Assembly (NCBI RefSeq): GCF_000230555.1 | Contig: NC_016078.1 | Span: forward strand, 3,619,001-3,683,000 | Reading direction: 5' to 3' | Source: Pelagibacterium halotolerans B2 | GTDB taxonomy: Bacteria; Pseudomonadota; Alphaproteobacteria; Rhizobiales; Devosiaceae | Length of the DNA: 64,000 nt | In this document: one piece after another, positions 25,101 through 61,673 of the stretch | Layout: each line of letters begins with the position of its first letter | How positions within the stretch are numbered: position 1 is the first letter of the stretch | The notes under the pieces: generated by a model | What the model saw: only the letters and a program-made list of their open reading frames with translations | Told to the model about the DNA's origin: nothing | Database searches by the model: none | Translations under genes and position numbers: made by a program

Positions 25101-25676
25101 CCCCCAAAAAGCATTTCCCATAACGTGGTTGTGATCGGCCGGTGCCTCTGAGCCAGCCGCCTTAGCGGCTGCGCGCGATCATGGCGATCGATCATCACCG
25201 GCAAGTCCGACAGCCAACCTGCCCTATTCGATTTGCCTTGGCGGCAGTTTTTAGGGTCGGTCAAGCACTCGGACCGACACTGGAGCCCGGCCCGATGCGG
25301 GAATCAAGAGCAGGGCAAAGTATTTGTGTTCTATTTTCCGCGAGTCGATTCCGAATCAAAGGCGGAACGACTCGGATGTCGGAACGATGGATTCATGAAA
25401 GATTCCGAAGAAATAAAGTAATAACCAGTTTTATTTCAAATTTGATAGCTGTATTGATGAATAATGCATTTGGAGAAACTATAAAATTGTAACCGATGTT
25501 TAATCATTGGATGTAAGTGTATTTCCATATTCCGGGGGAATACACTGTGGATGGTCGTGCTGCGTTGGAGCGGCGCGATTGTCGGCAAGAATGGTTTGCA
25601 CCTTCTGCTCCCGGCCATCGCAACGGCAGGAGAGACAGAATGTCATCCACACCCCTATGCTCATCGGGCGCCGCCC
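25101..25676. other. Intergenic region upstream of the chemotaxis operon; no credible gene
   Basis: 576 bp between the HD-GYP gene and the STAS gene. Bases about 25390-25550 are strikingly AT-rich for this genome. A reading frame at 25181-25492 has no recognisable domain, unusual composition and no good ribosome site, so I do not call it. A GGAGAGACAG site near 25629-25638 precedes a 15-codon frame (25640-25687) that overlaps the STAS start. The promoter of the che operon should lie here, but I cannot place it. Confidence 0.5.
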
Positions 25677-26006
25677 ATGCCCAATGAAGACCGTCACACG
25701 CTCGTTCTGGGTGGTGACGCCGGCATAAAATCCGCACAGAATGTCGCGGCCAACCTCGCCCGGGCCCTCTCCGAACACCCCCACGTCGCCATTGACACCC
25801 AAACGCTTTCAGCCGCCGACATCACCACGGTGCAGACGCTGCTGGCCGCCAGGGCCAAGGCAAAGCAGTTGGGCAAGTCATTGGAAATGCTGACGCCGAT
25901 CGGCGCGCCGCTGCACGAGGTTCTGGCGTCCGGCGGCTTTTTGACTCCCGCGCAGGACAATGCCGGCTTCTGGAACGGGACCAACGCAAACCAGGCGGGA
26001 CACTGA
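25677..26006 (+). CDS. STAS-domain protein at the head of the che operon
   Basis: A 109-residue protein resembling STAS/anti-sigma-factor-antagonist folds: a beta strand HTLVLGG, then NVAANLARALSEH, VAIDTQTLSAADITTVQTLLAARAK (split here as a strand and helix), and a late strand with LEMLTPIGAPL. Small STAS proteins encoded first in alphaproteobacterial che operons (the orf2 position in Agrobacterium and Sinorhizobium) are poorly understood and may link chemotaxis to other regulators. The serine usually phosphorylated in such proteins may be the one in TLSAADI. It precedes cheY by two bases. Confidence 0.75.
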   Translation: MPNEDRHTLVLGGDAGIKSAQNVAANLARALSEHPHVAIDTQTLSAADITTVQTLLAARAKAKQLGKSLEMLTPIGAPLHEVLASGGFLTPAQDNAGFWNGTNANQAGH

Positions 26007-26008
26007 CC

Positions 26009-26377
26009 ATGAGCAAGACAATACTGACCATCGACGATTCCGCGTCCATCCGCCAGATGGTGTCCATGACCCTGACAGCCGCCGGCTTTGAGGTCATCGA
26101 GGCCGCCAACGGAGCCGAAGGCTATGACAAGGCGATAGCCCAGCCCGTCCATGCGGTTCTGACCGATCTCAACATGCCGGTGCTTAACGGCATCGAGTTC
26201 GTGCGCAAATATCGCGCCCATCCGGCGAGCAAGGGGATACCGGTTATCCTCCTGACCACCGAATCCGACGACGACCTCAAGCGCCAGGCCAAGGAAGCCG
26301 GCGCCACCGGCTGGATCGTCAAGCCCTTCAAGCAGGACCAGCTTCTCGCCATCATCAAGAAGGTGGTTGGCGCATGA
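26009..26377 (+). CDS. cheY: Chemotaxis response regulator CheY
   Basis: A 122-residue single-domain receiver. The acidic pair is at 9-10 (TIDDSAS), the phosphorylated Asp53 lies in LTDLNMPVLNG, Thr in LLTTESDDD and Lys in WIVKPFKQDQL. It receives phosphate from CheA and either binds the flagellar switch or drains phosphate. It overlaps cheA by four bases (ATGA). No cheZ or second cheY is visible in this cluster. Confidence 0.95.
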   Translation: MSKTILTIDDSASIRQMVSMTLTAAGFEVIEAANGAEGYDKAIAQPVHAVLTDLNMPVLNGIEFVRKYRAHPASKGIPVILLTTESDDDLKRQAKEAGATGWIVKPFKQDQLLAIIKKVVGA

Positions 26378-28404
26378 ACGTTTCCGATCCCACCGATACG
26401 TTCCGCCAGGAAGCCCGCGAGCTTCTCGAACAGCTCGAAGCCGGTCTGCTCGATCTCGAACAGGATCCCGCCAATTCCGATCTGATCAATTTCGCGTTCA
26501 GGGCCCTTCACACGATCAAGGGGTCGGGTGCGATGTTCGGCTTCACACGCGTTGCCGAGTTTGTCCATGAATTCGAAACCGCCTTCGATCGGGTCCGCAA
26601 GGGTCAAAGTGCCGCCAACAAGGCGCTCATTGAAGTTGCGCTCGAAGCCAAGGATCACATTCATCGTTTGATCGAAGAGCCCGATGCCGAAGTTTCGGGC
26701 GGCAATGAAATTCTCGCGACGCTGCGCATCATCGTGGATGGCGGTACTCCTGCGCGGGAAAGCGACAAGGTTGTCGAAGCGCCGCTTGCCGACACTGCAC
26801 CCTCGGCCGATGCGCCGACATGGTGGCGGCTGGTCTTCTATCTTCCGTCCGACTGTCTTGCCTTCGGCACCAATCCGATCCTCCTGCTCGAGGAACTCGC
26901 CGAGCTTGGGCCCAATCGGGTCCTGGCCCTGACCGACCGCATCCCCGATCTCGACAGTCTCGATCCCGAAGTCCCCCATATCGGCTGGCAGGTCGATATC
27001 GAGGCCGCCGATCCCGCCGCGGCGATCGACGACATTTTCATGTTCCTGCGCGACAGCATGGAGCTGACCCTGTCTCGGCTCGAAGATGCGGCCCCCGCTT
27101 CCGACGCGGATGTCCCTGAGGAGGTCACGCCCGTTGCGGTTGCCGAAGCGCCCGCAGCGACCGCGAAACCACCCGCCAAGCGCACCAAACCGGCAGACAG
27201 GGCAGAGCCCGACCGTACCGCTGCCACCTCCCTGCGCGTACCCGCCGAACGGCTTGACGAATTGATGGATCGCGTCGGTGAACTGGTCATCGCCCAGGCC
27301 CGCCTGACCCAGATTGCCGCAACGAGTTCGGATACGGCGCTCAAGACGATCGCCGAGGAACTCGAACGCCTTTCCTCGGGGCTCCGCGATACCTCCATGG
27401 GCATCCGAATGGTGCCCATCGGCTCGCTGTTCGGCCGGTTCCGGCGCCTCGTGCACGATCTGTCCGGCGAATTGGGAAAGCCCATCGAATTCGTGACCGC
27501 CGGCGAGGACACGGAGCTCGACAAGACAATGATCGAGCGCCTGGCCGATCCGCTGGTCCACCTCATCCGCAACGCCATGGACCATGGGCTCGAAAGCGCC
27601 CAGGCCCGGGCGGCATCCGGCAAGCCGGCCAAGGGCACAGTTCGGCTTTCGGCTGTTTATTCGGGCGCGGAAGTCGCCATTTCGGTGTCCGATGACGGGG
27701 CCGGACTCGACGCCTCGCGCATTCGCGCCAAGGCCGAGGAAAACGGGCTGATAACGCCCGACACCAAGCTCACCGAGCAGGAACTGTATCACCTGATCTT
27801 CGCGCCGGGCTTTTCGACAGCCAAGGAAGTGACCTCGCTTTCGGGTCGCGGCGTGGGCATGGATGTGGTCAAGCGCACGATCGACGGGCTGCGCGGCACC
27901 ATCGACCTCACGACAATCCCCGGTCAGGGCACCACAGCGACGCTGCGCCTGCCTCTGACACTGGCCATCATCGATGGCATGCTGGTGCGTGTGGGCAATG
28001 GCCGCTACACGATCCCGCTGGCCGCCGTCGAGGAGTGCGTGGAACTGCCCGAAGGCATTGAAGCGCACGCCAAGGGGCGCAATTTCCTCGATATACGCGG
28101 CTCGCTCGTGCCCTATCTGCGATTGCGCGAAGTGTTCGGCACCTCGGCACCTCCAGAGCCTTTCCAGAAGGTGGTCATTGTCTCGTCGGGCGATGGCAGG
28201 GTGGGGTTGGTTGTCGATCAGATCATCGGCAACAACCAGACCGTCATCAAGCAGCTCTCCAAGCTGCATTCGTCGATCAAGTCCTTTTCGGGCGCGACCA
28301 TTCTGGGCGATGGCACAGTGGCACTGATCCTCGACACCGCTCACCTTGTCGCATCCGGCCAGCCTCAGGGCGAAGGCTACAGCCTGAGCGGGAGGGCCGC
28401 ATGA
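26374..28404 (+). CDS. cheA: Chemotaxis histidine kinase CheA
   Basis: A 676-residue kinase. The order is an HPt domain with His46 in FRALHTIKGSGAMFG; a linker and a domain at about 148-235 (WWRLVFYLPSDCLAFG to LRDSMEL) in the position of P2; a dimerisation domain starting LRVPAERLDELMDRVGELV; an ATPase domain with N-box HLIRNAMDHG, the DDGAGLD box and SGRGVGMDVV; and a CheW-like P5 domain to the end. It phosphorylates CheY and CheB in response to receptor arrays. It overlaps cheY and cheW by four bases each. Confidence 0.96.
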   Translation: MNVSDPTDTFRQEARELLEQLEAGLLDLEQDPANSDLINFAFRALHTIKGSGAMFGFTRVAEFVHEFETAFDRVRKGQSAANKALIEVALEAKDHIHRLIEEPDAEVSGGNEILATLRIIVDGGTPARESDKVVEAPLADTAPSADAPTWWRLVFYLPSDCLAFGTNPILLLEELAELGPNRVLALTDRIPDLDSLDPEVPHIGWQVDIEAADPAAAIDDIFMFLRDSMELTLSRLEDAAPASDADVPEEVTPVAVAEAPAATAKPPAKRTKPADRAEPDRTAATSLRVPAERLDELMDRVGELVIAQARLTQIAATSSDTALKTIAEELERLSSGLRDTSMGIRMVPIGSLFGRFRRLVHDLSGELGKPIEFVTAGEDTELDKTMIERLADPLVHLIRNAMDHGLESAQARAASGKPAKGTVRLSAVYSGAEVAISVSDDGAGLDASRIRAKAEENGLITPDTKLTEQELYHLIFAPGFSTAKEVTSLSGRGVGMDVVKRTIDGLRGTIDLTTIPGQGTTATLRLPLTLAIIDGMLVRVGNGRYTIPLAAVEECVELPEGIEAHAKGRNFLDIRGSLVPYLRLREVFGTSAPPEPFQKVVIVSSGDGRVGLVVDQIIGNNQTVIKQLSKLHSSIKSFSGATILGDGTVALILDTAHLVASGQPQGEGYSLSGRAA

Positions 28405-28898
28405 GCACCCCAGCCACGTCTATGAACGCCCTGACCATCCGCCTCGACGATGAACTGTTCGCCGTCGAAGCCAGCCAGGTGCGTGAGATCCTCGATCTCG
28501 TGCCGATCACCGAAGTGCCCAATACCCCAGCCTTTGTGGGCGGGCTCATCAATGTGCGCGGACGCGTCGTTCCGCTCGCCGATCTGCGCGTGATGTTCGG
28601 CATGGAACGGCCCGAGCCCGACGAGGACACCCGCATCGTCGTCATGGAGGTCAATATCGGCGGCGAGCCCACTGTTGCCGGCATCCTTGCCGACAAGGTC
28701 CACGACGTCACCGACATAGAGGCCGCCTCGATCGAAGAGGCACCCAAGGTCGGCATGCGCTGGCGGCCCGAATTCGTCAAGGGCATCGGCAAGCGCAATG
28801 GCGGCTTCATCATCATCCCGGACATGGAACGGATATTTGAAACACCGGGCGATAGAAATTCGCCCGCTGCAGCATCAGAAGAAAGGTCTGCACTGTGA
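28401..28898 (+). CDS. cheW: Chemotaxis coupling protein CheW (first copy)
   Basis: A 165-residue Che[41 protein letters not shown] and [13 protein letters not shown] are standard positions. It bridges receptors and the P5 domain of CheA. The ATG overlaps the cheA stop and its own stop overlaps the receptor start (GTGA). A second, more divergent CheW follows the receptor gene, so arrays may use two coupling proteins. Confidence 0.95.
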
Positions 28899-30988
28899 GA
28901 CTAACGATCAAGACAAAACTGGCGACCGTGTTCGGCGTGGTCGTCGCCCTTTCGGCAGGAAGCATGTTCATTGCCCTGCAGAATTTGGGGCAGCTCAACA
29001 CCGAGCTCGAAACCATTGTCAATGTCCGGTCGGCCAATCTGGTCACCTCGGCGGAAATGCAGACCAGCCTTGAAAGCCTTGGCTCGCGCATCCGCGCCCA
29101 GATCCTGACCACCGACCCCGTGGTAAAGGACGATTATGTCGCCTCGATCCGCAGCGACTACGACGAACTGGTCGATGGCCTTGCCGCCCTCGATGCCAAT
29201 GCACAAGACCCCTTCATCCGTGAGCAGCTGCCGGCATTTGGCACAAAGCTCGAAGAGCTGTGGGCCTCGGTCAACCGGGCGACCGAGTTGACACTCAAGA
29301 ATTCCGATGCGGCCGCGCTCGCCGTCAGCCGCAGTGACGGCAGCGGTACGCTTGGCGTGTTCGAGGAGACCATGGCGGCGCTACGGACCTCGTTGCAGCG
29401 CAAGGTTGACGCTGGCGATCTTTCGGCTTTCCCCGCCTATCGGGCCGCCACTGAAATGTTCCTGACCGGTACCGACATGTTCCGCCAGCAGCGCAACGTG
29501 CTTCTGGCCGCATCGCAGGACCGTGAGCTCCAGGAAACATGGCATGCCGATTATTTGACCGGCGTGCAAGCCAATGCCGAACGAATACCGGACATGCAGC
29601 GCACGATGCCGATGTCGGACATGGCGTTGTTCAACGCCGCCCGCGACGCCTATGACGACATGGTCGCCGCCATGGACAGCGCCGTGGCCATCAGCGTCGA
29701 AAACGGCGATTATTTTGCCTTGGAAGAGCTGGAAAGCGCCAGCGTGCTGCGCCGTGAGGCGGATGCGATCCTGCAGGCCATGATCGATCGCAACCAGGAC
29801 ATCATGGTTCAGGCCGACGCCGAGGCTCAAGCGCTCTATGAGAGTTCGATGCTGCTGCTGATCAGCCTTTTGGTTGGTTCCGCCCTCATCGCCGCCCTGG
29901 CCGCCACCTGGATCGTCGTCTCGATCTCCCGGGCTCTTTCCAGCGCCGTGCGTCTTGCAAATGATGTCGCCGACGGCAATCTCAACGCCACCGCCGACAA
30001 CAAATCCGACGACGAAGTGGGCGATCTGATCAAGGCGCTCAACGCCATGACCGCCAAGCTGCGCGAAGTGGTCGCCGAGGTCACCGCAGCGACCCGCAAT
30101 GTCGCCGCCGGTTCCCAGGAAATGTCGGCAACCGCCGAACAGCTCAGCCAGGGCGCCACCGAACAGGCCTCCTCGACAGAAGAAGCCTCGGCCTCCATGG
30201 AGGAAATGGCTGCAACCATCAAGCAGTCGGCGGACAACGCCTCCCAGACCGAAAAGATCGCCCGCCAGTCCGCGGCCGATGCCATCGCCTCGGGTGAAGC
30301 CGTCGACAATGCGGTCAGCGCCATGCAGACCATCGCCGAAAAGATCATGGTGGTGCAGGAAATCGCCCGCCAGACCGATCTGCTCGCTCTCAACGCCGCC
30401 GTGGAAGCGGCCCGTGCGGGCGAACACGGCCGCGGCTTTGCGGTCGTGGCGTCCGAAGTACGCAAGCTTGCCGAACGTAGCCAGGCCGCGGCGGCCGAAA
30501 TCTCGACCCTTTCGGGCGACACGGTCAAGGCAGCCCAGTCGGCCGGCGAAATGCTCTCCAAGCTGGTCCCCGACATTCAGCGGACTGCCGAACTCGTCGA
30601 GGAAATCTCGGCCGGCAGCCGTGAGCAGAATGCCGGTGCCGCCCAGATCAACACAGCTATCCAGCAGCTCGACAAGGTGACCCAGCAAAACACCTCGGCC
30701 GCCGAGGAAATGTCTGCAACCTCCGAGGAACTGGCCAGCCAGGCCGAACAGCTCCAGGCCGCGATCGGGTATTTCCGCGTCGACGGCAACGCTGTACCCG
30801 CCCCGGCCAATTCGGTTGCCGCCCCTTCGGCCAAGCCCGATCTCAAGCGCGAGATTCTGGCCGGTGCCCCCCATATGAAAAAGGCGCCCACAAAGGGTTC
30901 GGCTTCTTCGGGTGGCGGGTTCGACCTCGATCTGGATGAAGGCCAGGACGATCTGGACACCCAGTTCACCCGCCGCGGCGCGGCCTGA
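28895..30988 (+). CDS. Methyl-accepting chemotaxis protein encoded inside the che operon
   Basis: A 697-residue transmembrane receptor. TM1 is about 8-28; the periplasmic part (30-310) is helical; TM2 is about 315-340 ([20 protein letters not shown]); then come a HAMP domain and a cytoplasmic signalling helix bundle with the tip [20 protein letters not shown]. The start is GTG at 28895, overlapping cheW. The C-terminus is a flexible acidic tail ending TQFTRRGAA without a CheR-docking pentapeptide. The ligand is unknown. Its position between two cheW genes marks it as the dedicated receptor of this pathway. Confidence 0.93.
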
Positions 30989-31000
30989 TCGGGACCTGTC

Positions 31001-31465
31001 ATGGCTGAACAAACCCAATATGTAACGCTCGGTGTCGCGGAGGAAATCTTCGCGGCGCCGGTCGCCACGGTCCAGGAAATTCTGGACATGCTGCCCATAG
31101 CCCGCCTGCCGCGCGCGCCCGAGAACCTGCTCGGCATGATCGATGTGCGTGGCAAAGGGGTGCCGGTGCTCGATCTGCGCCTGACCCTTGGCATGGACCC
31201 GGCGGACGATACCGAAAACACCCGCATCGTGGTGCTTGCCGTCAACGGGCCCGACGGCGCGGTGACTGTGGGCCTGCGGACCGACAAGGTGTTCGAGGTA
31301 ACTGTGCTCGATACCGAAACGCTCGACCCTGCGCCCACCGTCAGCGCCGGCTGGAGCGGGCACTGCATCGCGGGTATCGGCCGCCGCAATGGCCGTTTCG
31401 TGACAGTGCTCGATCTGGACGGCTTGCTCGGTGACATCGTCAGGCAGCCCATTCTCGCAGCGTGA
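31001..31465 (+). CDS. cheW: Chemotaxis coupling protein CheW (second copy)
   Basis: A 154-residue CheW-fold protein: YVTLGVAEEIFAAPVATVQEI, PRAPENLLGMIDVRGKGVPV and LRTDKVFEV match family positions, but identity to the first CheW is visibly low. It follows the receptor by 12 bp. Two CheWs in one operon are common in alphaproteobacteria, and the pair may set the stoichiometry of the array or serve different receptors. Confidence 0.93.
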   Translation: MAEQTQYVTLGVAEEIFAAPVATVQEILDMLPIARLPRAPENLLGMIDVRGKGVPVLDLRLTLGMDPADDTENTRIVVLAVNGPDGAVTVGLRTDKVFEVTVLDTETLDPAPTVSAGWSGHCIAGIGRRNGRFVTVLDLDGLLGDIVRQPILAA

Positions 31466-31521
31466 TTGCGTTTTCGGCTGGCCCAACCTCCCGGCCAGCC
31501 GCACGCCATGGAGTTCATTCT

Positions 31522-32403
31522 TTGTCCGCGTTAGCCCGCCTCAAAACCGATATCGAAGATGACGACCGTCTGAGCGAAGCCGATTTCCAGCGCATTTCAG
31601 CGCTGATCGGCCGCGAAGTCGGCATCAAGCTGCCTCCCACCAAGCGCCTGATGGTTGAAGGGCGACTGCGCCGCCGGATGCGTGTGCTGGGACTGGCCAG
31701 CTTTTCGGCCTATGGCGATCATCTTTTCAGGCAGGGCGGGCTTGATGGCGAACTGCCCTACCTCATCAATGCCGTCACCACCAACAAGACGGATTTCTTC
31801 CGCGAGCCCGAGCATTTCGATCTCATGGAAAGGTTGATGGTGCCCAATCTTCTTGAGGCAAGGCGCAACGAGCGCATGCCGCTGCTCAAGGTGTGGAGCG
31901 CCGCCAGCTCCACCGGCGCCGAGGCCTATACCGCCGCCATGGTGCTTTCCGATATCGCTGCCCAGCGGCGCGATTTCCGCTTTGCCCTTCTGGGGACCGA
32001 TATTTCCACCGACGTTCTCGACCAGGGGCGAAGAGCCGTCTATCCGGCCGAACAGATCGTACCGGTGCCGCCGGCAAAACAAAGCCGCTATCTGATGTTC
32101 GCCCGCAAGGCCGGACCGCGCCCTGAAGTGCGCATCGTGCCTGAACTGCGGCGCCTTGTGCGGTTCCAGCGCCTGAACCTGATGGCCGGCACTTATCCTT
32201 TCGACCGTGACGTCGATATCATCCTGCTGCGTAACGTTTTGATATATTTTGAAAAGTCCGATCAGGAAGCGGTCATCAATCGCCTGGTGGGCCATTTGCG
32301 CCCCGGCGGATATCTGCTGCTCGGCCATTCTGAATCGATGATCGGCACATCGGTCACCATGCGCCAGGTTGCGCCCGCCGTGTTCCAGAAGACCGGGGCA
32401 TAG
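31522..32403 (+). CDS. cheR: Chemotaxis protein methyltransferase CheR
   Basis: A CheR of about 293 residues: an N-terminal helical domain ([20 protein letters not shown]) and a SAM-dependent methyltransferase domain with [28 protein letters not shown] and [16 protein letters not shown]. It methylates receptor glutamates with S-adenosylmethionine. The start is uncertain: TTG at 31522 has TGGAG eight bases upstream, while a GTG at 31462 overlaps the cheW stop but would add an unlikely N-terminus. Its tether-binding beta-subdomain may dock the WxxF tail of the second receptor at 59343-61673. Confidence 0.92.
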
Positions 32404-32407
32404 CGCG

Positions 32408-33526
32408 ATGAGCGAAAAAATCCGCGTCCTGATTATCGATGACAGCGCCTCGGTGCGCTTAACGCTGAGCGATATCATTTCCGCCGATCCCGATCTCGAG
32501 GTCATGGCGACCGCGTCGGACCCCTATGTCGCCGCCGAGCGCATTCGCCAGGAAGTGCCTGACGTCATTTTCCTCGATATCGAACTGCCGCGCATGGACG
32601 GGCTGACCTTCCTGCGCAAGATCATGTCCCAGCGTCCCATCCCCGTGGTCATCTGCTCAAGTCTGGCCGAGGCCGGCTCGGACACTTTCATAGAGGCGCT
32701 CGAGGCCGGTGCCGTCGACGTGGTTGCCAAGCCGCGCGTCGATACGGCTCAGTTCCTCCAGGAATCGCGGATGCGCATTTGCGATGCGGCCAAGGGTGCG
32801 GCCCACGCCAAGATGGCTGGTATGAAAAAGCAGGCTCCGGCCCTGACCGTCGAATCCAAGCTCACCGCCGATGCCATATTGCCCGCCGTTTCCGAAACGC
32901 GGCGCAAGAGCCTTATCGAACGCATTCCCGTGACCGAACCGATTGTGGCCATCGGTGCATCGACCGGCGGCACCGAAGCGCTGCGCGAGATTCTCGAGGC
33001 CCTGCCGGCCAATTGCCCGCCCATCATCATCGTGCAGCACATGCCCGAAAAATTCACCGGCGCCTTCGCCCGCCGTCTCGATGCGGGCTGTGCGATGTCG
33101 GTCCGGGAGGCGCAGGACGGCGAAATTGTTCGGGCCGGGCAGGTGCTCATGGCACCGGGCAACCATCACATGATGCTGGTGCGCAACGGCTCACGCTATA
33201 CCGTAAAGATCGCCGACGGACCCCATGTTTCGCGGCACCGTCCCTCGGTCGATGTCCTGTTCCGTTCCACCGCACAAACCGCGGGCCGCAACGCATTGGG
33301 CATCATCCTCACCGGCATGGGCGATGATGGCGCGCGTGGCCTGCTCGAAATGCGCGAAATGGGCAGTCCCACAATTGCCCAGGACGAGGAAACATCGGTT
33401 GTTTTCGGCATGCCCAAGGAAGCCATCCAGCGCGGCGCCGCCGGCAGGGTCCTGCCGCTTGGAAAAATCGCCGATGAAGTGCTGGCCTTCGGCCACAAGG
33501 CCCAACGGCCGGGAGAAAACAAGTGA
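32408..33526 (+). CDS. cheB: Chemotaxis methylesterase/deamidase CheB
   Basis: A 372-residue protein with an N-terminal receiver ([27 protein letters not shown]) and a C-terminal methylesterase domain. The catalytic triad is in GASTGG (Ser), VQHMPEKF (His) and GMGDDGARG (Asp). CheA phosphorylation activates it to remove receptor methyl groups, giving adaptation. No cheD gene is present, so CheB probably also deamidates receptors. It starts five bases after cheR, and its stop overlaps the next gene. Confidence 0.95.
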
Positions 33527-35241
33527 TGACGACACCAACGGCCGTACGCCAGCTTGCAGCCGATCTGAGCGCCCAGCGTGAAAAGATCGAATCCGCCTTC
33601 GTATCGGTGGGCGGATGCCTTACCCAGGGCGCCGCGCTTCTCAATGCCCTCACAAATCTGTTCGACGCGCTTCCCGATGCCTTGAGCGGCGCCGAGGTCC
33701 AGCAGGCCACGGGCCATCTTGAAGCCGTCGCCAGCCGGGCAACCGCGCTTTCGGACGTTTTTGGGCAGGAAAGAGCCGATCTCGAGCGTCTTTTCGACGT
33801 GGTCAGCGCCGCCAACCTGCCGATCTCCGATCTGCACCGCACGATCAAGATGATGGGCATCGTTTCGATAAATGCCCGTGTGACCGCCGCGAGCATCGCC
33901 CAGGACAGCGATGATTTCGATGTGTTCACCACCGACATCGCGACGCTTTCGGAATCCGCCACCCGCACCCTCAAGGAATTTTCGCACGCCTATCGCCAGC
34001 TCGTGATCGAGGTCGATGCCGCGGTCGGTCAGCGCAACCGCTTCGAGGCGGCCCACGCTCACACGCTGTCCGATCTGGCCGGACGCTTGACTGCCACATT
34101 GCGGGCCCTTGAAAACCAGCGGGCCTCCGCCGTCGACGGCAGCGCCGAAACCAGCCGGTTGTCGCGCCAGATCGTCGGGCAGATCGGCAGCGCAGTCATG
34201 GCGCTGCAGGTCGGTGACGCACCCCGCCAGCGGCTTGAGCATATCGAGACCGGATTGGAGCATCTGGCTGCAATTTTGTCGGGCGAGCCCGTCTTCGATA
34301 CCGAAGCATCGTTCGAGGACCGCGAGCCTGCGCTTGATGCGATCGCCGCGCTCGAACAGGAACAACTGGCCGATACGGCTCGCGATTTTGCCCTCGAGGT
34401 CGGCGATGCCGAACGTTCGCTGGCCGCGCTGGCCGCCGATGCCGAAACCATAATGGCGCGCAGCCGCGGGCAATATGGCTCGGACGTCGGCAAGACATCC
34501 TCGATTGCGAGCCTGAGCGAACAATTGCGGGCCGCCGTATCCATGCTCGCCGATTTCGAGGCCGAGCGCGCCAAGCTCGAAGCCGTCGCGGCGACCGTGC
34601 AACAGACCGTGGCGGTCTTGCTCGGCCATGTCGAAGCGGTCCAGGACATCGAGGCCAATATGCGCCTGGTCAGCCTCAACGCGGCGGTGCGCTGTGCCCA
34701 GCTTGGGCCGCGCGGCGCCTCGCTCACTGTAATTGCCACCCAATTGCGCGAACTCACCAGCGAAACCGTGATTGCCGCCGAAAGCGCCGTCGACTGGCTG
34801 AGCCAGTCCGCGGCGCTCGCCAATGCCTTCGGCACCAGCGCCGATGGAGCCGGCAAGGGCAAGGGGCTCGAAAAGGACGCCACTCTGGCACTCGAACTGC
34901 TCTCCGGCCTCGATCGGAAGCTGGCCGTGGCGCTCGAAAGCCTCGATACCGACGGCACCAGGGTCATCGCCCTGCTCCAGACGGCGGCGAATGGGCTCGA
35001 CGGGCTCGGGACACTTTCCGAGGCCATGGACGATGTCAGAATGCAGATTGCCGGTCTGGCTCCAGACGCGCCGTCCGCCGAACCCACGGAAAATATCGCC
35101 CTTATTCTGGCCGGCCTGCGCCGCCTTTATACAATGGAGGCCGAACGCTCGGTCCACGACGCGCTTTTCGGCTCACCCGCTCCGATCGCCGCCATCGACC
35201 AGCCCGCCGAAGACGATTTCGGCGATTTCATGGTGCTCTGA
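33526..35241 (+). CDS. Uncharacterised soluble helical protein of the che operon with two MCP-tip-like hairpins
   Basis: A 571-residue, almost wholly alpha-helical protein with no signal peptide, no membrane segment and no HAMP domain. Two regions align without gaps to the 28-residue hairpin tip of chemoreceptors: one about 116-143 starting INARVTAASIAQ, and one about 384-411 starting LNAAVRCAQLGP, each followed by a helix like the [10 protein letters not shown] arm. The conserved tip residues E and R are replaced. The C-terminus is acidic (EDDFGDFMVL). The ATG at 33526 overlaps the cheB stop by one base and has GGGAG upstream, so it is clearly part of the operon. I infer a cytoplasmic partner or mimic of receptors, perhaps acting on CheA, CheW or CheB; the function is unknown. 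Confidence 0.8.
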   Translation: MTTPTAVRQLAADLSAQREKIESAFVSVGGCLTQGAALLNALTNLFDALPDALSGAEVQQATGHLEAVASRATALSDVFGQERADLERLFDVVSAANLPISDLHRTIKMMGIVSINARVTAASIAQDSDDFDVFTTDIATLSESATRTLKEFSHAYRQLVIEVDAAVGQRNRFEAAHAHTLSDLAGRLTATLRALENQRASAVDGSAETSRLSRQIVGQIGSAVMALQVGDAPRQRLEHIETGLEHLAAILSGEPVFDTEASFEDREPALDAIAALEQEQLADTARDFALEVGDAERSLAALAADAETIMARSRGQYGSDVGKTSSIASLSEQLRAAVSMLADFEAERAKLEAVAATVQQTVAVLLGHVEAVQDIEANMRLVSLNAAVRCAQLGPRGASLTVIATQLRELTSETVIAAESAVDWLSQSAALANAFGTSADGAGKGKGLEKDATLALELLSGLDRKLAVALESLDTDGTRVIALLQTAANGLDGLGTLSEAMDDVRMQIAGLAPDAPSAEPTENIALILAGLRRLYTMEAERSVHDALFGSPAPIAAIDQPAEDDFGDFMVL

Positions 35242-35360: not shown

Positions 35361-35408
35361 TTTAAATCGTTTGCAAAAACACAAAAGCCAAATTGCAAAC
35401 GTTTTAAA
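35361..35408. promoter_or_regulatory. Inverted-repeat operator upstream of the second lacI
   Basis: TTTAAATCGTTTGCAA (35361-35376) and TTGCAAACGTTTTAAA (35393-35408) are reverse complements except at one base, separated by 16 bp. Each arm contains CGTTTGCAA, typical of a LacI-family half-operator. Location just before the regulator and its downstream importer suggests autoregulation and operon control. Confidence 0.7.
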
Positions 35409-35422
35409 TGGAGGAAACGCCC

Positions 35423-36469
35423 TTGCAGGCCGCTCGTGCGCGCACGCTCAAGGAACTTGCTGAACGGCTTGGGGTCTCGGTGACCACCGTGAGCCGGGCA
35501 CTGGCCGGGCATGAACAGATTGCGCGCCGCACCCGTGAAAGGGTTGCGCAGGCGGCCCGGGACATGGGCTATGTCCCCAACATCGCAGGACGCCAACTCG
35601 TCTCGGGGCGATCCAACTTCGTGGGTTTCATTATCCCGCTGCGCGGACCCAATTTCATGGATTCCTATCTGGGGGAATTTGTCACCGGGCTGAGCGAGGG
35701 GCTGGTCAGCCACGGCATCGACCTCATCATCGCCACGGTCCAGTCCGGCCAGTCCGAACTCGACGTTCTGCGCCATCTCGTGGAATCCGGGCGCGCCGAC
35801 GGCGTGGTCATCCCCCGTATCGCCGCCCAGGACGAGCGCGTGGAATATCTCTGCCACCACGATTTTCCCTTCGTGGCCCACGGACGCGTCGAAAATCCCG
35901 AGCTCACCTATAGCTGGCTCGATGCCGACGGACAGTCGGCTTTTGAAGAGGCGTTCGATCTCCTCTACGCATTGGGTCATCGCCATTTCGGGATCGTCTC
36001 GATCTCCGAGGAGATGACCTTCCGCAATCTGCGCGAGCGCGGGTTCAAGCTGGCCATGGAGCGGCGCAACGATCCCGAGCTTCGCCTCGATATCGTGCGC
36101 GCCCCGCGTTTCGATCGCGGCGAGATGGTGTCGGCCATCGGCCGGCTGCTCGATGCGCCCAACAGGCCCACGGCCATCATGGGCCTGTTCGACGAAATTG
36201 CATTGACCATCATGGACGAGGCCAAACGGCGCGAGATCTCCATTCCCCGCGACATGTCCGTCCTCGGCTTCGACAACATCGCCGCATCCGCCTATGCCCC
36301 GCCCGGCCTCACGACTTTCGAGGTCGAGACCCGATCCATGGCCCGCGAGATCGCGCACATCCTTGTGCGCCGGATCGAGGGCGAACCGGCCGGACAAGGC
36401 AATACGCTGATCCGGCCCACGCTTGTTGCGCGGGCCAGTCACGGACCAGTGCCCCTCAACGGGCACTGA
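35423..36469 (+). CDS. LacI-family regulator of the sugar-type importer operon
   Basis: A LacI/GalR regulator of about 348 residues. The helix-turn-helix is TLKELAERLGVSVTTVSRAL, followed by hinge sequence NIAGRQLVSGRSN and an effector-binding domain with late VLGFDNIAASAYAPPGLTTF. I prefer the TTG at 35423 because GGAGGAA ends eight bases before it; an ATG at 35408 overlaps both the operator arm and this ribosome site. It is the first gene of an operon with an importer, a glycosidase and a deacetylase. The ligand is probably the transported glycoside or a breakdown product. Confidence 0.9.
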   Translation: MQAARARTLKELAERLGVSVTTVSRALAGHEQIARRTRERVAQAARDMGYVPNIAGRQLVSGRSNFVGFIIPLRGPNFMDSYLGEFVTGLSEGLVSHGIDLIIATVQSGQSELDVLRHLVESGRADGVVIPRIAAQDERVEYLCHHDFPFVAHGRVENPELTYSWLDADGQSAFEEAFDLLYALGHRHFGIVSISEEMTFRNLRERGFKLAMERRNDPELRLDIVRAPRFDRGEMVSAIGRLLDAPNRPTAIMGLFDEIALTIMDEAKRREISIPRDMSVLGFDNIAASAYAPPGLTTFEVETRSMAREIAHILVRRIEGEPAGQGNTLIRPTLVARASHGPVPLNGH

Positions 36470-36517
36470 CCGCCGCTTCTACTCATGATTTTATCGATTT
36501 ACGGGAGGTTAAAAACG

Positions 36518-37795
36518 ATGAAAACATCAGCCAGATATCTTATTTCCACCGCACTGGGATTGCCGTTGGCCCTTGGCGTTGTCGCCTCGGCCAACGCCCA
36601 GATCCTGTTCTGGTCCAACCAGGCAGCCCCCATCGAGGAAACCCAGGCCATGCGCGAGCAGGTGCTGGCCGGATTTGATGGTGAGGTCGACTTCCAGACC
36701 CAGGATACCGGCCCGTTCCTCACGCGCCTCGATGCCGAGCTTGAAGCCGGCAGCGGATCGATCGGTGTCGTGGGCGCGCTTCATGGCGAACTTGCCAGCT
36801 ATACCGACAACTGGACCGATCTTTCCGATCTCGACCTCGGCGATGTGAGCGTCAGCCCGGCCTTTCTCGAACTGGCCCATCTGGGCACCGACGAGCTCAA
36901 ATATCTGCCCTGGATGCAGGCAAATTACGTGATGGCCGCCAGCACCCAGGCCCTCGACTATCTGCCCGAAGGGGCCGATATCGACGCATTGACTTACGAC
37001 CAGTTCGTCGATTGGATGGAAGTGCTCGCCACCGAAACCGGCTCGCCCAAATTCGGCTTTCCGGCCGGTCCTCAGGGCCTCAAGCATCGCTTCTTCCAGG
37101 GTTTCCTGATCCCCTCCTATGCCGGTTCCACAGTAACCAGATTTGGTTCGGATGAAGCGGCGCAGGGTTGGGAAATGTTCCGCGAACTCTGGCAGTACAC
37201 AAATCCCGCCTCGACCAATTACAGTTTCATGCAGGAACCGCTGCTCGCCGGTGACGTGTGGGTTGCCTTCGACCACGTCGCGCGTCTGGGCGAAGCCTTC
37301 AACCAGCGCCCCGACGATTTCGTGGCCTTCCCCGCGCCATCGGGTCCGGTAGGCCGGGGCTTCATGCCGGTTCTCGCCGGCATCGCCATTCCGGCCGGCT
37401 CGCCCGATATCGAACAGGCGCGCGCTCTTGCCACCTATATGATGCAGCCCGAAACCCAGGTGGCGACGCTGCTCGCCACCAATTTCTTCCCCACCACCGA
37501 CGCCGCGCTGCCCACCGACCTGCCGCCATCGGCCCAGGCGCTGGGTGCCGCGATCACCACCATGACCAGTTCCGAGGACGCACTCCCCGCCCTGCTGCCG
37601 GTGGGTCTGGGCGATCTCGGAGGGCAGTTCAACCAGGTCTATGTCGATACCTTCGAGCGCATCATCCTGGCCAATCAGGATATCGCACAGGTGCTCGAGG
37701 AACAGTCCAACGCCCTGCGCGACATCATAGATCAGGCGGGCGCCCCGTGCTGGGAGCCCGACGAGCCCTCCGAAGGCCCGTGCCCGGTCGATTGA
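36518..37795 (+). CDS. Extracellular solute-binding protein, sugar/family 1 type
   Basis: A 425-residue periplasmic protein with a signal peptide (MKTSARYLISTALGLPLALG, cleavage near ANAQ). The mature part starts ILFWSNQAAPIEETQAMREQ and carries an extended family 1 binding fold with RLGEAFNQRPDDF and a late GIAIPAGSPDIEQARALATYM segment. The C-terminus has two Cys in APCWEPDEPSEGPCPVD, probably a disulfide. The ATG at 36518 is about nine bases after GGGAGG. It supplies specificity for the permeases and ATPase that follow. The ligand is unknown; a glycoside osmolyte is inferred from the downstream glycosidase. Confidence 0.9.
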   Translation: MKTSARYLISTALGLPLALGVVASANAQILFWSNQAAPIEETQAMREQVLAGFDGEVDFQTQDTGPFLTRLDAELEAGSGSIGVVGALHGELASYTDNWTDLSDLDLGDVSVSPAFLELAHLGTDELKYLPWMQANYVMAASTQALDYLPEGADIDALTYDQFVDWMEVLATETGSPKFGFPAGPQGLKHRFFQGFLIPSYAGSTVTRFGSDEAAQGWEMFRELWQYTNPASTNYSFMQEPLLAGDVWVAFDHVARLGEAFNQRPDDFVAFPAPSGPVGRGFMPVLAGIAIPAGSPDIEQARALATYMMQPETQVATLLATNFFPTTDAALPTDLPPSAQALGAAITTMTSSEDALPALLPVGLGDLGGQFNQVYVDTFERIILANQDIAQVLEEQSNALRDIIDQAGAPCWEPDEPSEGPCPVD

Positions 37796-37806
37796 TCGTT
37801 CCCGTT

Positions 37807-37834
37807 GCGCGCGGCACGTCCTCGTGCCGCGCGC
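37807..37834 (+). other. Perfect GC-rich hairpin after the sugar-type binding-protein gene
   Basis: An exact 11-bp inverted repeat, GCGCGCGGCAC and GTGCCGCGCGC, with a 6-nt loop starts 12 bases after the stop codon. No U-tract follows. It is the third example in this window of such a structure directly behind a binding-protein gene. Confidence 0.75.
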
Positions 37835-37908
37835 GATCTCTCCCCCGCCCGGACGCTTCGGTGTGTCGGGACGGTCCCAAGAGCGCATAGAGGCGCAAGA
37901 GCATCGCC

Positions 37909-38754
37909 ATGCCCAATAAAGCCCTGCCCTATCTGCTGCTGACACCGGCGCTTCTGTTCTTGCTGGTGTTCTTCCTCTATCCCTTCGTCCAGATCGCCGT
38001 TCTGGCGTTCAGCGGGCCGGACGGGTTCACCATGAGCCATTTCCAGCGCATGGCCACCCATTGGAAGTTCGGCACCGCGCTCACCAATACCCTCATTCTC
38101 ACGGCCATCATCGTGCCGGTCCAACTGGCCCTGGCGCTCTCGATGGCCTCGATCGTGACCCGCCTCAAAACCGGACGCAACACGATCCTCTACATTTTTG
38201 CCATTCCGCTCGGCCTGTCCGATCTGGCGGCCGGCATCATCTGGCTGGCGATTTTCGAGCAATCGGGATTTCTCAATTCCCTGCTTGTGGGGCTGGGCGT
38301 GACCGATCAGCCGCAACTCTTTCTGGGCTACCAGAACATCGGCTGGATCTTTGCCGCCGTCATCATCGCCGAGATCTGGCGGGCCACAGCCATCATGATG
38401 GTCATTCTGGTCTCGGGCATGGGCATCATTCCAAAGGAATATTACGAGGCCGCCGAAGTGTTCGGCGCCTCGCCCTGGAAGCGGTTCTGGAAGGTGACGC
38501 TGCCCCTGCTGCGGCCCAGCCTGCAGACCGCGCTCATCCTGCGCACCATAGCGGCATTCGAAGTGTTTGCCGTGGTCGTGGCCCTGGGCGGCACCACGCT
38601 TCCGGTGCTGATGGGCGAAACCTACCAATGGCAGTTCGCGCTGCGCGACCGTTCGGTCGCCGCGTCCTATGCGCTGGTCATTCTGGTGATCTCGATTGCC
38701 GCAACGCTGGTCTTCCTGCGGATGCTGCGCGTGCCTAGGGAGGCAAGGATATGA
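37909..38754 (+). CDS. Sugar-type ABC importer permease (MalF/UgpA-like)
   Basis: A 281-residue permease with six hydrophobic segments, starting MPNKALPYLLLTPALLFLL. The cytoplasmic EAA loop is EAAEVFGASPWKRFWKVTLP (about 183-202), the standard coupling motif of carbohydrate importers. It overlaps the next permease by four bases (ATGA). The short periplasmic loops and lack of a long P2 loop place it with UgpA-like rather than MalF-like subunits. Confidence 0.92.
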   Translation: MPNKALPYLLLTPALLFLLVFFLYPFVQIAVLAFSGPDGFTMSHFQRMATHWKFGTALTNTLILTAIIVPVQLALALSMASIVTRLKTGRNTILYIFAIPLGLSDLAAGIIWLAIFEQSGFLNSLLVGLGVTDQPQLFLGYQNIGWIFAAVIIAEIWRATAIMMVILVSGMGIIPKEYYEAAEVFGASPWKRFWKVTLPLLRPSLQTALILRTIAAFEVFAVVVALGGTTLPVLMGETYQWQFALRDRSVAASYALVILVISIAATLVFLRMLRVPREARI

Positions 38755-39608
38755 GCACGGTTCAAACCAGCACAACGGGTGATGCTCCGCGTCCGGTCGG
38801 CGAAGCGGGGCGGGCGGGCAGATTCGTTTTCGCGGCAGCGGTTTTCCTGCTTTGCGCCTGGATCCTGGTGCCGCTTTACCTGCTGTTCGTCAACACATTC
38901 TCAGCCCCTTCCGAAGTGTCGGGTTTTCCCAAATCGGGCATTCCCAGTTTCGACATGGCTTCGGTTCAGTTCTTCCTCTCGTTCGCGGGCGTGGGCCAGG
39001 CCCTGTGGAACTCGGTGCTTGTCGCCGCGCTCACAATGATTTTGTCCGTGCTGCTGGGCGCTCCCGCCGGCTATGCGCTGTCGCGCTTCGAGTTTCCCGG
39101 AAAAGAGATATTCCGGGTGCTGGTGGTCATGACGCGCGCCTTCCCCCTGCCGCTTCTTGCGCTGCCGCTGGCCGTCATGTTCATCCGCACCGGGCTCGAT
39201 GATACGGCGATCGGGCTCGCCCTGGTTCACACGGTTCTGGCGCTGCCCTTTGCCGTGCTGATCACCTTTTCACTGTTTTCGGGCATTCCCCTCGAACTCG
39301 AGGAGGCAGCATGGACGCTGGGCTGCAACCGGCTCCAGGCCTTCATCAAGGTTGTGCTGCCCCTCGTCCTGCCCGGCATCGTGGCATCGGCGGTCTTTGC
39401 CTTCACCATTTCCTGGAACGAGGTGTTCGCTGCCTCGGTGCTGACCATCGAGAACCGCACGCTCACCGCTTTCCTCGTTCAAAACCTCAACGTCTCGCCC
39501 CTGCATCTCAAATTCGCCGGCGGCGCCGCGCTCGTACTGCCGGCACTCATCTTCATCTTTGCCGTTCGCAAATATCTGTTTGCGATGTGGGGCATCGCCA
39601 ATCGATAG
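38751..39608 (+). CDS. Sugar-type ABC importer permease (MalG/UgpE-like)
   Basis: A 285-residue permease with six membrane segments. The EAA loop is EEAAWTLGCNRLQAFIKVVL and the C-terminus KYLFAMWGIANR is typical of MalG-like subunits. An extended cytoplasmic N-terminus of about 25 residues precedes the first segment. It forms the channel with the preceding permease; the ATPase gene starts eight bases later. Confidence 0.92.
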   Translation: MSTVQTSTTGDAPRPVGEAGRAGRFVFAAAVFLLCAWILVPLYLLFVNTFSAPSEVSGFPKSGIPSFDMASVQFFLSFAGVGQALWNSVLVAALTMILSVLLGAPAGYALSRFEFPGKEIFRVLVVMTRAFPLPLLALPLAVMFIRTGLDDTAIGLALVHTVLALPFAVLITFSLFSGIPLELEEAAWTLGCNRLQAFIKVVLPLVLPGIVASAVFAFTISWNEVFAASVLTIENRTLTAFLVQNLNVSPLHLKFAGGAALVLPALIFIFAVRKYLFAMWGIANR

Positions 39609-59346: not shown

Positions 59347-61673
59347 AACTCGGACCAATCCGTTTCCACCGCCGTATTGCCCATGGAGGTACGGCGAGGC
59401 TGAGGGGAGGATGCGGAACCTTCTGCCCTCTGGTCGATATCCCACATCGCATCATCGCTGATAGCGTTCCCATCGATGGTGAACCGGGCAACGATTCCGT
59501 CCAGCGCCGTCACCTGCGTTTCGGTCTGCTCGATGGTTGCGTTGGTCTCTTCCACAAGTGCCGCGTTGTGCTGGGTCATCTCGTCGAGCAGCCGCACGGC
59601 GGAGGACACCTCGGAAATCGCCGCCGCCTGTTCGCGGCTTGCCGTTGAAATGCCGCCCATGATCTCGGCATTCTCGATCACCGCCGCACGGATTTCCCGC
59701 AGCGTTTCGGTGGCTTGCGCGACAAGTCTGGAGCCCCCGCCCACTTCGCTGGCGCTTTCCTCGATCAGCACCTTGACCTCCGAGGAGGCCTGCGCCGCCG
59801 ATTGCGCCAACCGGCGCACTTCGACCGCGACAACGGCAAACCCTTTGCCCGCCTCGCCGGCCCGTGCCGCCTCCACCGAAGCGTTGAGCGCCAAAAGATT
59901 GGTCTGGAAGGCGATATCGTCGATCATCTTGATGATGTCGGAAACCTTGGCCGATGAGGTGGTGATGCGCTCCATGGCCTGATTGGCCGCGCCCATAACC
60001 GTGCCGCCCTTTTCGGCGAGGTCCGATGCCGCGCGCGTCTTGTCGAGCGCATCCTGCGCCTTTTGCGCATTGCCATTTACGGCAACGGCGAGCTGCTCCA
60101 TCGAGGCAGAGGTCTCCTCGATGGTCGCCGCCTGCCGCGTCGTGCGTTCCGAAAGGTCGTTGGCACCCGAAAGGATTTCGCCTGTCGCGGTCTTGAGCGC
60201 TCGGGACGTATCCTTGAGCCGGCCCACGATCCCGGCAAACGTTTCGGCCATCGCATTTGTGTCGTCCTTGAGCTGCGCAAATGCGCCCTCATAGGCGCCG
60301 TTGACCCGCAGCGACAGATCGGCGTCGGCCATGGCCGAAAGCACCTGCCCGGTCTCCGAGAGACCCCGGTCCACCGTTTCCATCACCATATTGACGCTTT
60401 GGGCAAACCCCTCGAGTTCGGGGTCCTCGTAGCGCACGTCGATCCGCCCGGAAAAATCCCCCGCCATGGCGGCCGAAACCACGTCCTTGATACGCGCCTG
60501 CAGATCGGCGCGGATGCGATGTTCCTGCGCATCCTCTGCCGCCAGGCGTGCCTTTTCGCTGTCCATGTCGCGCATGGCCCGGCCATTGTCGCGAAAAACC
60601 ATGAGCGCCTCGACCATCTGGCCGACTTCATGGCGCTGTTGCTGGTCGAGTTCGAGGTCGAAATCGCCATCGGCCAGTTGCCGCATGCGCCCGGCGATCT
60701 GCTTGATTGTGCTCGACAACCCCCGGCCGATCAGAATGGCCAGCCCTGTGCCGAACACCAGGGCGACGATCCCGGCGATCAGAACCGCGTTGAGCGTCGT
60801 TGCCGCCATTGCAGCGCCGCTCGGCCCCAACGCATCCTGCCGCGCCTGCACCGAGGCCAGCATGGCGCCGAACGCCTCCTCCATCTGCGGACCGAGAACG
60901 TCCAGCTCGTCACTCATCACTCCATTGCGCGCATGGACCGCTTGAGCCAGGCTTGTCGCCTGCGCCATATAGGCATCGAGCCCGTCCATCATGCGATTGG
61001 CCGTGGCCTTCTGGGAATTGGAGATCACCGCGTCGTGCAGCTTTTGCAGGTTTTCCTTGGCAAAAGCCGCATGTTCGGCCGCCGCTTCCAGGCGCGCCGG
61101 ATCGGCGGTCAAAAGAAACTGCTCGACCTCCAATTGTGTCAATATCGTCGATTGCACGCCAAAGCCCGCCGAACCGGTGGCATTGAAATTGCCGCTCACC
61201 GCACGCAGGGCCGCCGTCGCGTCGGTGCGCAACTGGTCGCCCACCGCCCGCAATTGAACAATCTCCGCGTCGATTTGCGCCTGCAATTGCGTCATTTCGA
61301 CAAAGGCGGCCTCATAAGCCTGCGCCGAACTGGCGAACGCGGCAATCGCCGCCTCCGTTTCGGCATCTGCGGTAAAGAGCGCCATCACTTCGGGGTCGTT
61401 GGCCTGAAGGGCCGCTATGCGGTCGGCCAGCGTCTGGGCCGTTTCCGCCGAGGTTTCCAGCCGGTAGTCCAGATCGGCCAGCCGCGCCGCCGATAACTGC
61501 TCGACAAAGCCCGATATCGCGACGGTCTGCCGCGCCGCCACCCGGTATTCCGAGAAGGTCTGCGATACGGCACTGACACCGAAATAGGCAAGTGCGACAA
61601 TCGCGGCCAATAGCGCAATCATCGCGCCAAACGACGCATAGATGCGCTGCGCGACGCTGAGTCTGGACAGCAT
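59343..61673 (-). CDS. Methyl-accepting chemotaxis protein with C-terminal WxxF tail
   Basis: A 776-residue receptor: TM1 about 12-35, a helical periplasmic domain of about 260 residues, TM2 about 293-315, multiple HAMP-like segments (315-370 and onward to about 485), and a signalling bundle with tip [21 protein letters not shown]. The last residues are TDWSEF; W-x-x-F at the very end is the pattern of the CheR/CheB-docking pentapeptide (NWETF in E. coli). This receptor is encoded away from the che operon but could recruit its CheR. The ATG at 61673 has AGGGGG nine bases upstream. Confidence 0.93.

Follow-up and report, generated by a model that had tools for sequence, protein, structure and literature searches.

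A soluble tandem receptor-hairpin protein with a DxxxQ motif, encoded last in a che operon of Pelagibacterium halotolerans B2, is a likely phosphatase of phosphorylated CheY

Gene X closes a che operon in a 64,000-nucleotide stretch of the Pelagibacterium halotolerans B2 genome (contig NC_016078.1, positions 3,619,001 to 3,683,000 of the forward strand; this whole stretch is the window, and its own numbering is used below). The product is a soluble protein of 571 residues that combines two hairpins of the kind found in methyl-accepting chemotaxis proteins (MCPs) with a CheZ-type DxxxQ motif, and is most likely, judging from its sequence, an auxiliary DxxxQ-type phosphatase of phosphorylated CheY (CheY-P) that lies outside the CheZ family PF04344 and is not a receptor. 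The operon and the parts of X are laid out as follows.

25551-32403, plus strand: the che operon up to cheB, encoding a STAS protein, cheY (26009), cheA (26374), cheW (28401), mcp (28895), cheW (31001) and cheR (31462)
32408-33526, plus strand: cheB, directly 5' of X and overlapping it by one base
33526-35241, plus strand: X, the last gene of the operon, a soluble tandem receptor-hairpin protein with a DxxxQ motif
33535-34278, plus strand: module 1, residues 4-251
33835-33945, plus strand: tip 1, residues 104-140, a diverged receptor tip (INARVTAASI...)
34201-34245, plus strand: the DxxxQ motif, residues 226-240, ALQVGDAPRQRLEHI, with D231 and Q235 invariant
34312-35058, plus strand: module 2, an MCP-like hairpin, residues 263-511
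34642-34752, plus strand: tip 2, residues 373-409, LNAAVRCAQLGPRGASLTVIATQLRE, with R389 in place of the receptor Glu
34996-35040, plus strand: a degenerate second DxxxQ position, residues 491-505
35128-35157, plus strand: the YTMxxERxxH motif, residues 535-544
35203-35238, plus strand: an acidic, hydrophobic-ended C-terminal tail (AEDDFGDFMVL), a putative CheY-binding peptide

The operon runs from 25551 to 35241 in the order STAS-cheY-cheA-cheW-mcp-cheW-cheR-cheB-X and holds a single cheY. The open reading frame of X begins at GTG 33523 or ATG 33526 and ends at 35241; in the TGATG junction, the A of the ATG is also the A of the cheB TGA stop, which bears out an earlier note on this DNA that had placed X here, at the end of the operon and overlapping cheB. 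The same note saw neither a membrane segment nor a HAMP domain, and rightly: the top 19-residue Kyte-Doolittle mean of X is 1.39, versus 2.56 for the MCP of the operon, and HAMP was not found in X in a Pfam search up to E 1. Among 126 X proteins from the database, the hydropathy mean exceeds 1.6 in three and peaks at 1.72.

By sequence, both halves of X descend from MCP hairpins, hairpin 1 being a diverged copy. Residues 1-262 and 262-545 match each other across the tips (hhalign probability, P, 77; E 1.9e-5), and the two halves score 81.7 and 91.2 against soluble MCPs, where block shuffles (25 each) reach at most 23.9 and 27.8. A search with the X family profile retrieves the Thermotoga MCP 2ch7 (E 3.4e-19), and tip 2 is in register in this match; its HMMER bias term is large, and unrelated coiled coils begin to appear at E 5e-5. 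These results place above chance the two MCP-tip-like stretches that had been noticed before, which start with INARV at residue 115 and LNAAVR at residue 384. Searched by itself, X matches the Pfam profile MCPsignal (PF00015) at tip 2 only, with E 0.01, and the 16.2 bits stay below the cut-off of 34.6. At E 10, PF00015 matches 24 of 25 X members, the lowest E-value being 1.2e-5 (25.7 bits, locus L011) and the top score 29.3 bits (locus L039), still under the cut-off. The predicted structure also has the anticipated hairpins: module 1 is modeled as helical runs 4-124 and 130-251 joined by a turn at 125-129, with short breaks at 54-55, 96 and 178-179, and module 2 fits 3g6b_B with 2.9 Å over 211 residues.

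Like the MCPs (PF00015), X has in hairpin 2 an MCP tip and, in the model, an MCP hairpin fold; unlike them, it has no sensor, transmembrane segment or HAMP, scores under the Pfam cut-off, carries changed Glu and Arg residues at the tip and adds the DxxxQ motif and the tail. In receptors, the tip Glu and Arg make trimer contacts. In the 107-row X family alignment, to which all counts out of 107 refer, the receptor Glu is replaced by R or K in 104 rows at tip 2 (R389) and by T in 88 rows at tip 1 (T120), and the receptor Arg, which corresponds to Q392 of tip 2, by Q in 85 rows, H in three and K in two, R being kept in 17; the change of these residues had been seen correctly in the window protein. 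Neither tip matches the canonical NAKIEAARAG. Because the tip Glu is lost, the Arg mostly lost and the Glu of tip 2 reversed, any docking of X may be heterotypic or absent. Engineered single-chain chemoreceptors are reportedly laboratory fusions of true receptors, and differ in this from X. Their likeness to X lies in the two receptor hairpins per chain, as far as the description in PMC4692393 goes.

The earlier note offered two readings of X, a receptor mimic that titrates CheA/CheW or a scaffold for CheB. The receptor-derived part of the first stands; the decoy role, in which the X tips would bind CheA/CheW and titrate or cap the array while the DxxxQ helix is structural, now looks unlikely and ranks after that of a phosphatase. 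Its case is the descent of both halves from MCP hairpins, the changed tip residues, which would alter trimer packing, and the conservation of the tips (2.49 and 2.63 bits per column against an X mean of 1.8, with N385 and G394 of tip 2 invariant in all 107 rows). Yet the DxxxQ and YTMxxERxxH regions, at 2.98 and 2.97 bits per column, are better conserved than either tip, a decoy leaves the acidic tail unexplained, and a related class of single-hairpin proteins, described below, combines a canonical tip with QFQDxxxQ.

The earlier description, correct in positions, hairpins and changed residues, had overlooked three elements, namely the DxxxQ motif, YTMxxER and the acidic tail. The first lies within QxGDxxRQRxEH (residues 228-239), present in all 156 X proteins checked (126 database proteins, including the one from the window, plus 30 loci; 155 distinct), as are D231 and Q235 themselves. 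YTMxxERxxH likewise occurs in 156 of 156, small substitutions allowed, and the tail pattern in 155, after a variable linker (DDLDDLLF, EDLFDDVLF, DMDLDAFML); its low predicted local distance difference test (pLDDT) values in the model suggest that the tail is probably flexible. In a 51-row alignment, whose rows come from seven families of the order and, for two loci, from elsewhere in the taxonomic class (three of the 29 loci discussed below were dropped as duplicates), the invariant residues are Q228, G230, D231, R234, Q235, R236, E238 and H239 around the motif, M537, R541 and H544 in the YTM region, N385 and G394 at tip 2, and four residues of hairpin 1. The second DxxxQ position has only 1.44 bits per column, below the mean of the protein. 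Distant members of the family (L011 and similar) have at that position an FQRDLGE-like sequence that looks like the trace of an FQD motif; of 40 rows, 11 have the F and 10 the D.

A survey of the order gave one partial match, to X residues 189-283, in a frame of 380 amino acids which leads to the class just mentioned. Its product is soluble and has a canonical receptor tip followed by AMQFQDRAKQRL and the tail DDDAGIELF; the gene lies directly after cheB. A database search with this protein returned 7,854 proteins, of which the best 120 were used for motif counts: QDxxxQ is present in 103 and the acidic tail in 111, and a slightly wider pattern, an LNAx(I/V)EAA tip plus QDxxxQ, in 114, with a spacing of 116 in every one of these. 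In three of the best 120 the hydropathy mean lies slightly above 1.6, with a maximum of 1.69; otherwise there is no transmembrane-like segment. Where the source names them, class members are called methyl-accepting chemotaxis proteins, although this large soluble class probably does not consist of classical receptors. Strong matches occur in at least 13 of 297 genomes of the order, a lower bound since at most six candidates per genome were scored; all 13 loci carry QFQDxxxQ and adjoin che genes, 11 directly after cheB and two beside STAS-cheY-cheA or cheA. Examples are L110:2332-3447 and L127-L139, with a CheZ-like QFQDxxxQ, an ...ELF-type tail and, mostly, a place beside cheB. Among the best-ranked literature matches, no paper was found on this class or on receptor-hairpin DxxxQ proteins.

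X follows the class twice. Its N half is collinear with it through tip and motif (residues 7-254, P 97.1); its C half aligns over the tip, the degenerate second motif, YTMxxER (opposite TLxExR of the class) and the tail (P 97.7, and 97.9 for the full chain). From the tip Asn to the Asp of DxxxQ there are 115 residues in X (N116 to D231) and 116 in the class. As both halves align in register, with the first DxxxQ kept and the second lost, X can be read as a tandem duplicate of the class module. Common to both are the order of tip and DxxxQ helix, the T-L/M-x-E-R motif, the acidic tail and the place in the che operon; X differs in having two hairpins with one DxxxQ, diverged tips and GD for QD.

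The register also bears on whether DxxxQ is simply a remnant of general MCP sequence (such as MDQVTQQNA) with no catalytic role, which is very improbable. A D...Q does occur in 7 of the 18 other MCP segments extracted, and two of these seven, which come from the E. coli region and from the window, have the Asp 100 residues past the tip Asn; yet in none of the seven is it at 115-116, the remaining 11 segments lack a D...Q in the stretch scanned, and the Asp of X and the class stands in a different sequence (QxGD, QFQD) and is itself invariant in X. The genome has seven MCP matches besides X, none of which extends into the DxxxQ portion of the soluble-class profile. Another MCP of the window lies at 59751-60242 on the minus strand, within a 796-residue frame.

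The distribution of X ties it to chemotaxis and, more narrowly, to one CheA. In a first set of 23 loci, cheB precedes X in 22; in a wider set of 29 loci, which includes that of the window and draws partly on the same genomes, X follows cheB in 16 and in eight stands beside STAS-cheY-cheA or divergent from che genes. The expectation that homologs belong to che operons is borne out by these two groups and fails in the five other loci, which are taken up below. Among 61 genomes (P. halotolerans B2 and 60 relatives), X is present in 11 of the 12 with an ortholog of the operon's CheA (at least 55% identity, a cut chosen after a gap between 55 and 45% had been seen) and in none of the 49 without, 37 of which carry a more distant CheA. 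The twelfth genome was scored as lacking X; its operon is cut off by the end of a contig. The survey of the 297 genomes listed 99 at E 1e-5, with at most four candidates scored per genome; 27 were counted as X, with matches that span 500 or more profile positions at E-values no higher than 3.2e-58, and the other 72 gave partial, mostly MCP-like matches at E 3.7e-13 or weaker.

X could instead act on another receiver, be it CheB-P, a regulator outside the operon or the CheY of a second system. DxxxQ chemistry is not CheY-specific, and a second CheA, accompanied by CheY and CheB genes, is encoded in the genome. The CheZ (PF04344, E 10), CheX and CheC families were not found there, with controls positive elsewhere. 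The co-inheritance of X with the CheA of its own operon, and its absence where only a distant CheA is present, leave this reading with little probability. Since X occurs once in the genome, the second CheA system has none. That second system looks split, with cheY-cheA-cheW and mcp-cheR-cheB-cheY about 35 kb apart (loci L120 and L121, C1:3069000-3088000 and 3034000-3052000 in contig numbering). Downstream of X, the next gene starts at 35408 on the same strand after a gap of 166 bases; the genes at 35408-39608, a DNA-binding regulator and then transporter parts by the look of their start sequences, are apparently unrelated to the che operon.

The place after cheB, which X takes in 16 of the 29 loci and 22 of the 23 of the earlier, partly overlapping set, might also suggest a scaffold or regulator of adaptation. 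X would then bind CheB (or CheR) and control methylation, possibly in the manner of CheT, which binds CheR. CheT of Sinorhizobium meliloti (Agbekudzi et al., 2024), as far as its description in PMC12654446 goes, is a DXXXQ protein whose sequence is not significantly similar to that of any known chemotaxis protein; it is reported to bind CheR and to dephosphorylate one CheY-P. Adjacency by itself does not prove binding, the eight loci with X beside STAS-cheY-cheA or divergent from che genes do not fit, and DxxxQ and the tail are left unexplained, which makes a role in adaptation improbable, if marginally less so than that of another receiver. What CheT does indicate is that a DXXXQ phosphatase of the Alphaproteobacteria need not belong to CheZ (PMC12654446). 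Compared by description, CheT and X are both DXXXQ proteins of alphaproteobacterial che operons and unlike CheZ by sequence; receptor-like hairpins are not part of the account of CheT given there.

CheZ itself shares with X a DxxxQ in a long helix, an acidic hydrophobic-ended C-terminal peptide and a che gene setting, and differs in that X has no PF04344 match, G for Q before the Asp and receptor-derived hairpins, and has 571 residues against 214 in E. coli, with one DxxxQ per chain despite its internal repeat. The CheZ fold is not among the matches listed in the structure comparison of the X model, a listing that does not exclude that fold. In CheZ of the same order, the end is mostly SQDDIDALF-like and the motif region carries ACNFQDLTGQRI. 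The phosphatase motif of CheZ is given as DXXXQ with the neighboring AXXFQ in PMC7750401, and the class motif agrees with that published AXXFQ-DXXXQ. The class profile scores 37.0 against an alphaproteobacterial CheZ set and 39.7 against an E. coli-anchored one, where 25 shuffles each reach at most 28.7 and 25.3 and reversed profiles 21.3 and 27.0; the alignment to the alphaproteobacterial set is in the motif register. Frames of about 330-375 amino acids that match PF04344 and have ACSFQDLTGQR-like motifs (L084, L086, L098, L105, L106) hint that the order has additional CheZ-like proteins of greater length.

Several results weigh against X as a CheY-P phosphatase. The full Pfam lists of X and eight relatives, taken up to E 10, contain no PF04344. 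X and alphaproteobacterial CheZ align weakly at the motif (P 9), X and E. coli-anchored CheZ at P 2 with the best register off the motif; with match columns only, the top alignment to CheZ covers 393-439, again off the motif, and its score of 27.7 is barely above 100 block shuffles (at most 25.7). In CheZ, the Gln that precedes the catalytic Asp is described as the best-conserved position of the motif region; X has G there in all 107 rows, and the rest of AXXFQ is loosely kept in X, with A226 in 79 of 107 and V, I or A for F. The window protein has P at residue 233 (34222-34224), inside DxxxQ, where 100 of 107 rows have T and no other row has P, and this could weaken the site in this strain. 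In five of the 29 loci (L043, L044, L047, L049, L051; one genus) there is no che gene within 1.5 kb, nor, in the one checked that far, over 19 kb; motif and tail are kept in all five, and in a sixth genome of that genus X stands beside STAS-cheY-cheA. Finally, among the 27 genomes in which the order survey counted X, 12 have a PF04344 match and 15 have none, and X is also present in 7 of the 13 genomes that carry the single-hairpin class, in another che cluster as far as seen; X is consequently not simply a replacement for CheZ or for the class.

A CheY-P phosphatase on a receptor-derived scaffold is nevertheless the favored and likely reading, because the motif, the register with the class, the tail, the operon place and the co-inheritance with CheA converge on it; the DxxxQ signature makes X probably a signal-ending enzyme rather than a decoy receptor. 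In CheZ, DxxxQ binds the active site of CheY-P and positions the hydrolytic water. X would have arisen by tandem duplication of a soluble protein made of an MCP hairpin plus a DxxxQ helix. Copy 1, which keeps D231 and Q235, would engage the active site of CheY-P and position the hydrolytic water as CheZ does; copy 2 would have lost the catalytic residues and retained the tip that is closer to that of receptors. With its acidic, probably flexible tail, X may hold CheY near the site, as the C-terminal peptide of CheZ does, and the receptor-like hairpin or hairpins may place X at the CheA/CheW array, so that CheY-P would be removed near its source. Catalysis, CheY as the substrate and docking at the array are what we infer from these features.

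A bolder version is possible, and is put forward tentatively: the class annotated as methyl-accepting chemotaxis proteins would consist of receptor-shaped CheY-P phosphatases rather than receptors, seated in the array through receptor tips of their own, and X a tandem single-chain counterpart of a receptor dimer, with one hairpin as the enzyme, the other as the anchor, and an R389 tip that could pair with receptors in mixed trimers. If so, signal termination would be part of the array and could respond to the state of the receptors, the phosphatase possibly being positioned by receptor packing. The receptor counts of genomes would then also need to be rechecked. A PF04344 match is absent in 125 of the 297 sampled genomes of the order, not all of which are necessarily chemotactic; in chemosensory systems of the order without a recognizable CheZ, CheX or CheC, the ending of the signal needs candidates, and X and the class would supply them.

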